NCBI GenBank assembly: GCA_947629485.1
Contig: CANRDX010000011.1
Span: 1 to 45,065 of the forward strand
Reading direction: 5' to 3'
Length of the DNA stretch: 45,065 bases
Origin: an uncultured Clostridia bacterium
GTDB lineage: Bacteria > Bacillota > Clostridia > Christensenellales > Borkfalkiaceae
A model generated the notes under the pieces. It saw only the letters and a list, made by a program, of their open reading frames with translations. It was not told the origin of the DNA and did not search any database. A program made the translations under genes and the position numbers. Below, in pieces: positions 29,211 to 37,858 of the stretch (positions within the stretch are counted from its first letter, which is position 1; every line of letters begins with the position of its first letter).

Positions 29211-29836
29211 AAACTCCCTCCGAAACATTCCTCGACGGCGCGGCGCACGAGCGCCTGCGTCGCCTCCCGCTCGGGCTGACTTTCTATCACGGCGACGCGT
29301 TCCTCGGGGAACTTTTCAAACAGCTTGAAGTAATTCGCGCGAATGATCTTCTGCCGCTCCCGTTCCTCGTAGCGCTCTTGCGCGGCGCGATGACCGACGC
29401 GCGCCATGCTTTCCTCGACGTTGACGTCGAGAAAGATCGTGAGGTCGGGACGAAGGGTCTCCATCGCGGAGCGGTTGAGTTCTATCACCCAATCGAGGGG
29501 GACAAACCCGCCGTTGTAGGCAAACGAGGAGAGATAATAGCGGTCGCACAGCACGGTGACGCCTTCTTCCAATTTGCGCAGGATGCCGTCTGCGGCGTTG
29601 CGGATATGATCGGAGCGATCCGCCGCGAAGAGGAGCGCGATCGTGTACTCGTCCGTTTCGAGACGGCCCTTCATACAATCGTGCAGGATCGTGCCGAAGG
29701 GCGAATATGTCGGTTCGCGCGTTTCGAAACACGCGATGCGCTTTTCTCTCAGATAATTGGCGAGAAGGCGGAGCTGGGTGGATTTTCCGCTGCCGTCCGT
29801 CCCCTCGAATACGATAAATTTTCCCTTGTTTGCCAT
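29207..29836 (-). CDS. tmk: Thymidylate kinase
   Basis: 209 residues. dTMP to dTDP kinase. P-loop FEGTDGSGKST near residues 8-18, TREPTYSPFG, and CDRYYLSSFAYNG. The family's usual REPGGT is replaced by REPTYSP. I start at MANKGKF (29836): the -10 box ends 9 nt upstream, and the longer frame runs through the promoter. It is first gene of the operon tmk-rimM-trmD-rbgA-rnhB-yraN. Confidence 0.94.
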   Translation of the reverse strand: MANKGKFIVFEGTDGSGKSTQLRLLANYLREKRIACFETREPTYSPFGTILHDCMKGRLETDEYTIALLFAADRSDHIRNAADGILRKLEEGVTVLCDRYYLSSFAYNGGFVPLDWVIELNRSAMETLRPDLTIFLDVNVEESMARVGHRAAQERYEERERQKIIRANYFKLFEKFPEERVAVIESQPEREATQALVRRAVEECFGGSL

Positions 29837-29874
29837 AGCCTTTCTATTATAACAAATTTCACGGCGGCTGTCAA
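29836..29874 (-). promoter_or_regulatory. Promoter of the tmk-rimM-trmD operon
   Basis: TTGACA (complement of 29869-29874), 17-bp spacer, TATAAT (complement of 29846-29851), 9 nt, ATG. Both boxes are perfect; leader of about 2-3 nt. The AGAAAGG between -10 and ATG would lie mostly upstream of the transcript start. Confidence 0.85.
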
Positions 29875-29889
29875 TCGTAAAATTTTTTG

Positions 29890-29918
29890 TTGACATCGGC
29901 GGGGAAGCGTGGTAAACT
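29890..29918 (+). promoter_or_regulatory. Promoter of the structured leader RNA
   Basis: TTGACA (29890-29895), 17-bp spacer, TAAACT (29913-29918). Predicted start at 29925, the first base of the long hairpin. GTGGTA near 29910 and TACCAC at 29924-29929 also form a small dyad over the -10 box. Confidence 0.8.
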
Positions 29919-29924
29919 GAACCT

Positions 29925-30058
29925 ACCACACGTTTTTAATATCCTGCAAATGGGAATGCTCGGTAAAAACGCATTCTCTCTACTCATTTGCGGGTAAAAA
30001 TGTGTGGTAACATGGGGAGAAACGTTTTTCGTGCGTCTCTTCATGGGACGCACTTTTT
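29925..30058 (+). ncRNA. Structured leader RNA with terminator; riboswitch-like, family unknown
   Basis: Bases 29925-30008 fold into one long hairpin with 30 pairs in three helices: 14 bp (29925-29938 with 29995-30008, one G-U), 10 bp (29943-29952 with 29985-29994, one U-G), 6 bp (29954-29959 with 29971-29976). A 4-nt bulge and an 8-nt bulge separate them. Loop bases AAAAAC (29965-29970) can pair with GTTTTT at 30024-30029 just before the terminator, a possible pseudoknot or switch. An intrinsic terminator and then a ribosome site for a membrane protein follow. Conserved cores of purine, c-di-GMP, ZTP or SRP RNAs are not apparent. Confidence 0.65.
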
Positions 30059-30061
30059 ATT
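30031..30061 (+). terminator. Terminator/attenuator ahead of the small membrane protein
   Basis: 9-bp stem (30031-30039 with 30045-30053, including a T-G pair), 5-nt loop, then TTTTTATTT. The ribosome site of the next gene starts right after (30062), the layout of transcriptional attenuation. Confidence 0.8.
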
Positions 30062-30076
30062 TCGGAGAGAAAAGCA

Positions 30077-30418
30077 ATGAAGGAAAGGATCAAAATTTGG
30101 GCGTATCGCTTGATTTGGACGATTCTGCTCGCAACCGTCGTACTGCTCACGATTTTTTTGAAGGTCGAGGGGAAGGAGAACATTGCGCTGAAAGTTTGCA
30201 TAGGAGTTATCGTGGGCTTGTTTGTTTTCGCGTTCTGGCTCGATGCCTTCCTTGTCAACTATAAGACATACTGCATCGGTCAGATCGTCATCCTTGTCTA
30301 TGCGGGATATTTTCATCACTATATCAAGGTGAACGGCACCATATACGACGAGCACAACACCCTTGTGTATCTGACGCCGATCGTGCTCTCTACGACAGTG
30401 AACGGAATGGATATATAG
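30077..30418 (+). CDS. Small membrane protein of unknown function under leader RNA
   Basis: 113 residues. Three membrane helices (residues about 9-28, 38-58, 66-82) followed by a hydrophobic C-terminal stretch. No recognised family; there is an N-terminal basic MKERIKIW. The start has GGAGAG (30063-30068) at good spacing. Codon and base use are more AT-rich than neighbouring genes, hinting at a different origin. It can only be reached by transcription through the terminator at 30031-30058, so expression is probably conditional. Confidence 0.75.
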   Translation: MKERIKIWAYRLIWTILLATVVLLTIFLKVEGKENIALKVCIGVIVGLFVFAFWLDAFLVNYKTYCIGQIVILVYAGYFHHYIKVNGTIYDEHNTLVYLTPIVLSTTVNGMDI

Positions 30419-30484: not shown

Positions 30485-30800
30485 ATAAAGTGACGCCCCC
30501 ACTCGTCACGGCGGAGCCGTGACACCCTCCCCCTCGCTTGCGAGGGGGAGGGCTTGCTGCGGTGATGTTTCGACTGCGGCTTCGCCTCCGCTACTTCGGG
30601 GCGTTGCCCCTCGTGCCGCCCTTCGGCAACATAGAACGTGCGGGCGGGGCAATACGACGGATTGGGAATGGCAACCCCCACCTGTCACGGCAAAGCCGTG
30701 CCACCCGCCCCCTTCAAAGGGGGCAGGTCTACCCCCCCCCACCTGTCTCACTTCGTTCGCCACTCGCCCCCTTAAAAAGGGGGCAGGTCTACTAAAATCG
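30485..30800. repeat. Mosaic intergenic repeat cluster R4
   Basis: Convergent gap between a membrane-protein gene and mutY. Bases 30566-30655 are an inverted copy of R1 170-275. Two copies of a 'cccacctgtc.c' module (about 30680 and 30740) recur at 42690 and 43010. 30535-30551 contains CCCTCGCTTGCGAGGG. No gene seen. Confidence 0.75.
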
Positions 30801-36982: not shown

Positions 36983-37858
36983 TCACTTTTGATTGAATTT
37001 TTTTCTCACGAACCAATCGGTCACCCGTTCGGGGAGCATTTTCGAGACGTACCGCACGAGATTGTTCTTCCCGCCCACCGCCGTGACGGGCGGGGGATTG
37101 TGCCGTGCGGCAAGTTTCAAGACCGCCTCGGCGACAAGCGAGGGGCTCATGCCGCCCTGTTCCATGTTGGCAAGCGCGGCGGACGCCTTCTTCACCGAAG
37201 GGGAGTAGTTGAGGCTCTCCTCCTCGCCGTAGACGCGGCGGTTGTAGGTGAAATCCGTCGCCGTGCCCCCGGGGAGCAGCGCGCTCACGCGCACGCCGTG
37301 CGGCCTCAGTTCGAGATCTGCCTCGCGCGCAAGCATCGAGAGCGCCGCCTTCGACGAGGAATAGAAGGAATCGTAGGGAATGGGCATATCCCCCGCGAGC
37401 GAACCGACGAGGATCGCCCTGCCCCCTCTCCGTTTGAGAAAGGGAGAAGCCGCGCGCAACGCTTCCACCGCGCCGAAGTAGTTGACTTCAAAGAGATAGC
37501 GATAATCCCCGCTCTTCGCGTATTCTATGGGCGCCGCCATAGAGAATCCCGCGGAATAGACGAAGAGATCGATGGCGCCCGCCTCCTCGCCCGCGGCGCG
37601 CACCGCCTTCGAGAGTTCGCCCTCCCGCGCGGCGTCTGCGGTGAGCGTCTTGACCCGATCCCCCTTGAAGGGCGTGCGGGAGACGTTGTACACGCGGAAG
37701 CCCCGCGAGAGAAGTTTCAGCGCCGTTTCTCTGCCGATCCCCGAGGAGCCGCCGACGACAACTGCGATCCTTCTCGCGGACATGGCATGCTCGTTTTTCG
37801 TGCGTTCCTCATTGGGAGCTTGTTGAGGCTTTTCAGGCTGTTTCGTTTCCGTTTTCAT
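36983..37858 (-). CDS. Short-chain dehydrogenase/reductase
   Basis: 291 residues. Classical SDR: cofactor motif VVVGGSSGIGRE near residue 34, structural YSAGF (NNAG variant), catalytic Ser in ILVGSLAG and YSSSK (Y-x3-K). The long basic/polar N-terminus (about 25 residues, KPQQAPNEERTKNEH) is unusual; the internal MSARRI start would remove it, but neither has a clear close ribosome site. A TTATGA-17-TATAAT promoter lies at the complement of 37887-37915. Substrate unknown; the C-terminus resembles lipid/steroid-type SDRs. Confidence 0.88.
   Translation of the reverse strand: MKTETKQPEKPQQAPNEERTKNEHAMSARRIAVVVGGSSGIGRETALKLLSRGFRVYNVSRTPFKGDRVKTLTADAAREGELSKAVRAAGEEAGAIDLFVYSAGFSMAAPIEYAKSGDYRYLFEVNYFGAVEALRAASPFLKRRGGRAILVGSLAGDMPIPYDSFYSSSKAALSMLAREADLELRPHGVRVSALLPGGTATDFTYNRRVYGEEESLNYSPSVKKASAALANMEQGGMSPSLVAEAVLKLAARHNPPPVTAVGGKNNLVRYVSKMLPERVTDWFVRKKFNQK

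Follow-up and report, generated by a model that had tools for sequence, protein, structure and literature searches.

In the window, the whole stretch of 45,065 nucleotides of DNA from an uncultured Clostridia bacterium that was analysed, a promoter, a long interrupted hairpin and an intrinsic terminator stand one after another ahead of a gene for a 113-residue protein, which raises the question of what a terminator does between a promoter and its gene, and what might decide whether it forms. The leader belongs to a family of 5' leaders and is likely to act in cis, over its 134 nt, as a transcription attenuator, in which a linker strand that pairs either with the hairpin tip or with the terminator would switch the gene under a putative signal common to the family.

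Anatomy of the leader

All features of the leader lie on the forward strand. The promoter (29890-29918) consists of a -35 box TTGACA (29890-29895), a 17-nt spacer and an extended -10 box TG..TAAACT (29913-29918), and the first base of the 84-nt hairpin P1-P2-P3 (29925-30008) follows 7 nt past the end of that box. The 5' arm of P1 (29925-29937), whose first base is the probable transcription start according to the fold, the register common to the family and P1 covariation, pairs with 29996-30008. A one-sided bulge AATAT (29938-29942), in the family AAUA or CAUA, marks the junction with P2, whose arms (29943-29954 and 29983-29994), like the 3' arm of P1, are supported by both fold and covariation. 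At the tip, the P3 hairpin (GAATGC/GCATTC, 29954-29976) carries the loop TCGGTAAAAAC (29960-29970) with the motif GGYA at 29962-29965. The hairpin is followed by a 22-nt linker, here called J, with AACA at its start (30009-30030), by the intrinsic terminator (30031-30058; stem 30031-30039/30045-30053, U-run 30054-30058), by GGAGA (30064-30068), read from the sequence as the ribosome-binding site, and by the ATG at 30077 of the 113-residue protein (30077-30418), in which hydrophobic segments were recognised by eye.

The promoter, the 84-nt hairpin, the complement between its loop and the 3' side, the terminator and the ribosome site are all where the preliminary description of this locus had put them, and the fold of 29925-30075 (-55.8) lies far below that of shuffled sequences (-31.5, sd 3.15; z -7.7), none of 200 shuffles equalling it. 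Within 1 kb there is no excess of promoter-like sites (2, with 0.8 expected) or terminator-like sites (2, with 1.4 expected), and the promoter and terminator are convincing because the family shares them, not because of such site counts. Near the leader promoter, a perfect 12/12 TTGACA-17-TATAAT promoter (29846-29874) on the reverse strand faces a kinase-like gene, and inverted repeats with a CCCTCCCCCTCGC palindrome lie 3' of the window gene (30507-30700).

J has two possible partners. The loop bases AAAAAC (29965-29970) are the exact complement of GTTTTT (30024-30029), extended by one base on each side to AAAAACG/CGTTTTT, and this pairing grows to about 16 pairs once 29974-29982 joins, so that a tip strand (29965-29982) can pair with J as 29965-29971:30023-30029 and 29974-29982:30013-30021. 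Both this longer loop pairing and an alternative antiterminator hairpin (30011-30045), in which 30011-30020 pairs with 30036-30045, are additions to the preliminary description. In the window, the terminator (-14.7 kcal/mol), the antiterminator (-10.8 kcal/mol) and the tip:J duplex (-15.7 kcal/mol by RNAduplex, a duplex energy that leaves out the pseudoknot cost of a pairing that requires P3 to be broken) are in competition; of the two hairpins the terminator is the more stable, and in the free fold J is not paired with the terminator.

In the proposed mechanism, transcription would begin at the first base of P1 and the P1-P2-P3 hairpin would fold first. If J then paired with the hairpin tip (the loop and 3' arm of P3), the terminator would be free to form and the gene would be off; if J paired with the 5' arm of the terminator, the antiterminator would form and the gene would be on. 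A factor recognising the tip and the conserved unpaired bases (the AAUA bulge, the GGYA loop and the AACA after P1) would shift this balance.

A recurrent leader family and its genes

The window leader is one copy of a leader family that recurs among uncultured gut bacteria of one order. When 61 genomes, its own included, were searched by BLAST, the leader had one near-full-length relative (L003), 76% identical and placed before a different protein of 200 residues; most matches of this first survey had E > 0.1 and were taken as chance, and eight rows besides its own were followed as leaders. At E <= 0.1, a model built from 7 leaders (R1) matched 84 of the genus's 103 genomes; scores exceeded 100 bits at 16 places, and many of the matches listed lay at 47-70 bits. 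At E <= 0.001, R1 matched 54 of 248 genomes across the order, which belong to 28 of its 115 genera, own included. Of 298 genomes drawn from the other parts of the phylum it matched none under stricter filters, 9 of these genomes being of the same class. A second model (R2), for which only type C leaders (41) were used, gave 473 matches in 87 of the genus's 103 genomes (per matching genome median 4, maximum 16). Some near-palindromic leaders are counted twice here, with a match on each strand, as on contig 2 of the window's own genome. In that genome the 9 matches of R2 correspond to 8 leaders, among them the type A leader of the window, which this type C-only model detects at 58.2 bits (E 4.7e-10). 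A candidate second copy in the window at 37788-37820 (a weak own-genome BLAST match at 37792-37815) was rejected: it is 88% like the junction of J and terminator but has no hairpin, no 3' arm of the terminator and no U-run.

Several types can be told apart. Type C, which makes up the lower-scoring group of R1 matches, has the promoter, P1, bulge, P2, P3, J and terminator of type A and differs in its tip (GATACA..GGCAU..UGUAUCC); type B has a P1 of GCCAAAC/GUUUGGC and a length of about 200 nt (L006, L007, L009, L011); and a further type, recognised by eye, combines a GCCAA tip with UUGG in J (e.g. L124, L132). Among one genome each of 84,980 species, the exact type A pattern occurs on 30 contigs, all metagenome-assembled according to title or isolate name, labelled Clostridia, Clostridiales, Oscillospiraceae, Bacillota or uncultured bacterium, and several from goat, sheep, yak, roe deer or chicken. 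Two loci carry tandem leaders, each leader with its own promoter and terminator and with one gene after them (L121 1211-1641, at 1211 and 1501; L123 1278-1642, at 1278 and 1501). In L215, leader matches lie at 150-281 and 365-499.

The promoter stands in a nearly constant register. In 141 leaders with 45 upstream bases, TTG occupies -35 to -33 relative to P1 with frequencies of 0.96, 0.82 and 0.79, TG lies at -15/-14 and the end of a TATAAT-like box falls at -7. Of the 141, 139 have some -10 box (compared with 58% of shuffled sequences), and in 105 the best box keeps to this exact register, which is the commonest and is shared by the window leader. Given this fixed spacing, the first base of P1 is very probably the transcription start, which leaves regulation to the leader. 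On the other side, a Shine-Dalgarno (SD)-preceded ORF of at least 100 codons starts between -3 and +45 nt from the leader end in 108 of the 138 leaders with enough sequence, compared with 1 of 77 on the reverse side and 148 of 1540 random places (9.6%); this controlled count is a fairer test than the ORF caller used on 142 leaders, which favours near starts. The possibility raised at the outset, that the hairpin is a dispersed repeat unlinked to the gene, thus holds for its dispersal and fails for its linkage to genes in general, as the leader sits between a promoter and the start of some same-strand gene. Four leaders (L121, L123, L125 and L126) have an AAGGAG-like site within the terminator, in its loop or on its 3' side, and the start of the gene falls in the U-run, so that the terminator hairpin would hide the ribosome site as well. 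The gene of these four has a TTG start and 148-152 residues and opens with MIITFCGH or similar; the L121 protein has no Pfam match.

The strong promoter and terminator of the leader itself, together with neighbouring copies that each bear a promoter (L121, L123), would also suit a terminated 134-nt product that acts elsewhere as a stand-alone small RNA, the gene behind being incidental. This is improbable: neither a gene start right behind the leader at the frequency just given nor the excess of lipoproteins among those genes would be expected, and a conserved antiterminator would serve no use.

The 113-residue protein of the window had zero matches in a Pfam scan. A protein search of 100 other genomes gave three strong relatives, all of which carry the leader (L033/L069, L034/L073 and L035/L074), and two more were reached via their leader, making five leader-borne relatives of 141-231 residues with 23-48% identity. 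The gene neighbours in L033 are those of the window gene, with flanking ORFs alike, which we take by eye to be a thymidylate kinase and an adenine glycosylase. The window protein lacks the middle part of the longer relatives, as do L073 and, mostly, L118 (2 of the 5), and it stops about 20 residues short of them, the frame past the stop still looking relative-like by eye. It may therefore be a shortened target, although the absent middle by itself is not unusual. The expected recurrence of the leader with this gene is thus found in five relatives, but the same kind of leader also heads many unrelated genes, and the idea that it is specific to an orphan membrane protein has to be given up.

Lipoproteins are prominent among the genes behind leaders. 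A home-made lipobox rule assigns 58 of 133 distinct downstream ORFs to them, whereas among 190 background genes it picks out 5 (odds ratio 28.6, p 5.6e-21), where the ORFs include related paralogues behind leaders drawn from the top of match lists, and the background, taken from the window and 32 other loci, is non-random, every locus being leader-bearing, and could include a downstream gene called with another start. The 133 ORFs derive from 142 leaders after removal of 8 with an uncut ORF of less than 60 residues or none and the merging of one duplicate. In Pfam, 10 lipoprotein or lipoprotein-like proteins showed BspA-type leucine-rich repeats (5), DUF6273 (2), Listeria-Bacteroides repeats (2, one also with leucine-rich repeats), a solute-binding domain (1) or no match (1). 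A joint scan covered 64 of the 72 listed non-lipoprotein ORFs, with L069, L074, L093 and the window protein scanned separately and L073, L076, L123 1414-1641 and L199 312-794 left out. The 25 of 42 Pfam families considered for these 64 ORFs include zinc-ribbon (11), APH-type phosphotransferases (4), ABC ATPases (3), LRR_5 (3), DUF4236 (2), an EcoRI-type methylase (L078 1675-2730) and an Mrr-type nuclease (L149 1089-2324), the last two each behind a leader. In PADLOC, single members of the same set matched UzuA, a type II methylase and a type IV nuclease, among other matches, and ABC-type models were matched in 3; the UzuA-like defence gene behind a leader is L006 633-1484 (E 1.2e-49). Of the 8 leaders of the window's own genome, five precede lipoproteins, recognised by rule on contigs 13 and 36 and by eye on contigs 2, 48 and 15. 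The leader on contig 34 stands before a zinc-ribbon ORF of 40 residues, that of the window before the window protein and that on contig 25 before repeats followed by an ORF. Repeated TGTCATGTTGAGCGGAG-like units lie between leader and next ORF in L224, and L119 holds a Gut-1 RNA above the cut-off and a second one below it (2421-2490 and 2141-2214).

Covarying helices and the two partners of J

Covariation of the helices, which the preliminary description had proposed as a check, is present. RNAalifold on a MAFFT alignment (A1) placed J with the tip and missed P1 and P2 because of misalignment, and a column-by-column pairing scan of another alignment (A7) gave noisy output and was not used as such. 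A1 was replaced by hand-set structures with model-fitted alignments, and in these, which favour the given structure, the 42 distinct type A leaders show double changes in 27 of 37 pairs of P1, P2, P3 and the terminator, with 246 double-change cells compared with 68 in shuffles and with 95.9% of helix cells paired compared with 29-57% for slid partners. Similarly, 41 type C leaders, with P1, P3 and the terminator modelled, show double changes in 11 of 25 pairs and 96.6% of cells paired (32-54% when slid). These two-sided changes, which keep the pairs in P1, P2, P3 and the terminator, together with the fixed promoter register, the single orientation to the gene and the absence of matches in viral contigs for each of two exact leader patterns, make it very improbable that the leader is a mobile palindromic (MITE-like) repeat or a recombination site that stands before genes by chance, as its up to 16 matches per genome, its long near-palindromic hairpin and the accessory genes behind it might otherwise suggest.

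Across the family, J is complementary both to the hairpin tip (the loop and the 3' arm of P3) and to the 5' arm of the terminator. In type A, 96.2% of tip:J cells are paired (36-68% slid), with double changes in 2 of 15 pairs, a number matched by 188 of 500 shuffles; the pairing is mostly invariant, and this invariance is partly selected because 30 of the 55 rows came from a pattern that fixes the letters of J. The clearest varying pair is C-G in 21 leaders, U-A in 14 and U-G in 7. Type C tip:J cells are paired at 95.8% (16-56% slid), with double changes in 2 of 7 pairs (matched by 24 of 500 shuffles). The type A antiterminator is paired at 85.7% (28-63% slid) and has double changes in 6 of 15 pairs (matched by 23 of 500 shuffles), a covariation that is not independent of the terminator's own.

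Permutation of J among the 120 distinct leaders gives a further measure. The mean energy of a leader's own tip:J pairing is -15.5 kcal/mol, compared with -11.2 with permuted J, and that of J with the terminator arm is -13.7 compared with -9.2, none of 2000 permutations being as low in either case; for both pairings the result was repeated in the 78 leaders outside the type A alignment. Taken leader by leader in the sets of 42, 60 and 18, z falls below -2 against shuffled J in 42, 42 and 11 leaders for the tip and in 42, 43 and 15 for the terminator arm. At most 1 of 100 J shuffles equals the own tip pairing in 42, 22 and 7 leaders and the own terminator-arm pairing in 40, 31 and 8, and many leaders are thus individually non-significant. 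The antiterminator is within 4 kcal/mol of the terminator in 38, 28 and 11 leaders, and the free fold pairs J with the terminator in 25, 8 and 5. The sequences of tip and terminator differ among the types, and both pairings of J are retained.

As judged from sequence, a J with two mutually exclusive partners is the anatomy of a two-state transcription attenuator. The proposal that the hairpin and its loop pairing could decide whether the terminator forms is thereby strengthened, by the covariation of the helices and, for both the loop pairing and the antiterminator, by complementarity beyond that of shuffles and permutations. From this anatomy we infer that switching takes place during transcription, in the direction set out above and in answer to a signal. 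A constitutive hairpin that shields the 5' end of the mRNA, with a leaky terminator and no switching, would agree with a P1 that starts at the probable first base and with the greater stability of the window terminator over its antiterminator; it is unlikely, as it leaves the pairing of J with both partners and the conserved unpaired bases unexplained. Less likely still is ribosome-coupled attenuation through a leader peptide whose translation would start at an NTG in the 3' arm of P1. Such an NTG lies 9 nt before J in 114 of 120 leaders, and some ORF with SD and start is found in 86 of 120 (61 expected from shuffles), but an SD precedes the start in only 24 of 119 and the stops are scattered (20 before, 26 in, 30 just after and 43 far past the terminator); with a short conserved ORF with SD and fixed stop absent, the leader peptide was rejected as an extremely improbable reading.

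A putative common signal and its significance

The unpaired bases of the attenuator are conserved as well. In the sets of 42, 60 and 18 leaders, GGYA is present in the tip of 36, 52 and 13 (101 of 120; shuffled 6, 9 and 2), the start of J is purine-CA such as AACA in 42, 59 and 12 (113 of 120; shuffled 1.4, 4.5 and 0.8), and the bulge reads [AC]AUA in 31, 45 and 13 (shuffled 5, 13 and 3). The AAUA bulge, the GGYA loop and the AACA hint more strongly than anything else at a recognised core common to the types. Since these bases are common to the types while the helices vary, we infer from them one common signal for the family, either a small molecule or a protein, which would act on a group of genes for surface lipoproteins together with other accessory genes.

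Riboswitches that terminate transcription consist of an aptamer plus an antiterminator and a terminator. The leader family resembles them in its position, in its exclusive antiterminator and terminator, in its conserved unpaired bases and in its covarying stems: a terminator with a U-run lies between promoter and gene, a conserved antiterminator (the weaker partner in the window) excludes it, and a conserved structured domain carries the conserved unpaired bases. It differs from them in its many copies per genome within one order and in that a pathway common to its targets is not evident. T-box leaders likewise choose between antiterminator and terminator and occur in many copies per genome, as the present family does; however, the Rfam scans gave no T-box match, and no amino-acid genes were seen among the targets scanned. 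In the antisense-controlled attenuators of plasmid replication genes, a leader strand has two exclusive partners, as here, but the present leaders are dispersed before unrelated genes.

None of the 4227 Rfam models fits the leaders scanned. At the gathering score, Rfam 15 found only 3 tRNAs in the window and only tRNAs in 10 relatives; with E up to 5, the stretch 29800-30150 gave one microRNA model (18 bits, cut-off 100), and with E up to 2 the best matches over the leader in 8 relatives were a microRNA model (24.7, cut-off 63) and MicX (24.4, cut-off 75). The accessible parts of the literature, including PMC11109978, PMC8632094, PMC6429828 and PMC8040213, contain no account of the leader family that we could find, although it may be among the candidates of PMC8040213, which in its accessible part reports 3161 candidates from human microbiomes. 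The SLH motif riboswitch candidate is described, in the part of the source available, as an orphan leader RNA of Synergistaceae, Clostridia and Negativicutes that lies ahead of surface (S-layer homology) proteins in about 60% of cases (Stav et al. 2019, PMC6429828). Compared by this description, which was used without the motif's structure, the likeness is that of an orphan leader ahead of surface-protein genes. However, the targets here are often lipoproteins, and no SLH domain was found in the Pfam scans of the window protein, of 30 proteins or, among the 25 of 42 families considered, of the 64 proteins.

The best reading is that the leader is a new, riboswitch-like class of attenuator, for which ligand sensing and switching are predicted. 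Its wider form, a riboswitch-like RNA class with one common signal that would control, as a single regulon throughout the order, surface lipoproteins, orphan membrane proteins and certain restriction or defence genes of uncultured gut Clostridia, in place of protein regulators at a near-constant promoter, is tentative and stops just short of an even chance. The effector could instead be a protein or a trans-acting RNA that blocks or promotes tip:J pairing at the hairpin tip, which would make the leader an attenuator and not a riboswitch. This is a serious possibility, though one we would not bet on: the targets are diverse accessory genes in which a shared pathway is not evident, and tips and J strands are very similar within a type, so that terminated leaders might pair mutually in trans.

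Surface proteins and defence genes are among the most variable traits of gut bacteria in answer to hosts and phages. If the riboswitch-like reading is true, one RNA family gating such genes several times per genome would amount to a large regulon under cis-regulatory RNA in organisms that have no known genetics, and the leader family, with 142 distinct natural variants collected, is an orphan element that can be tested directly.
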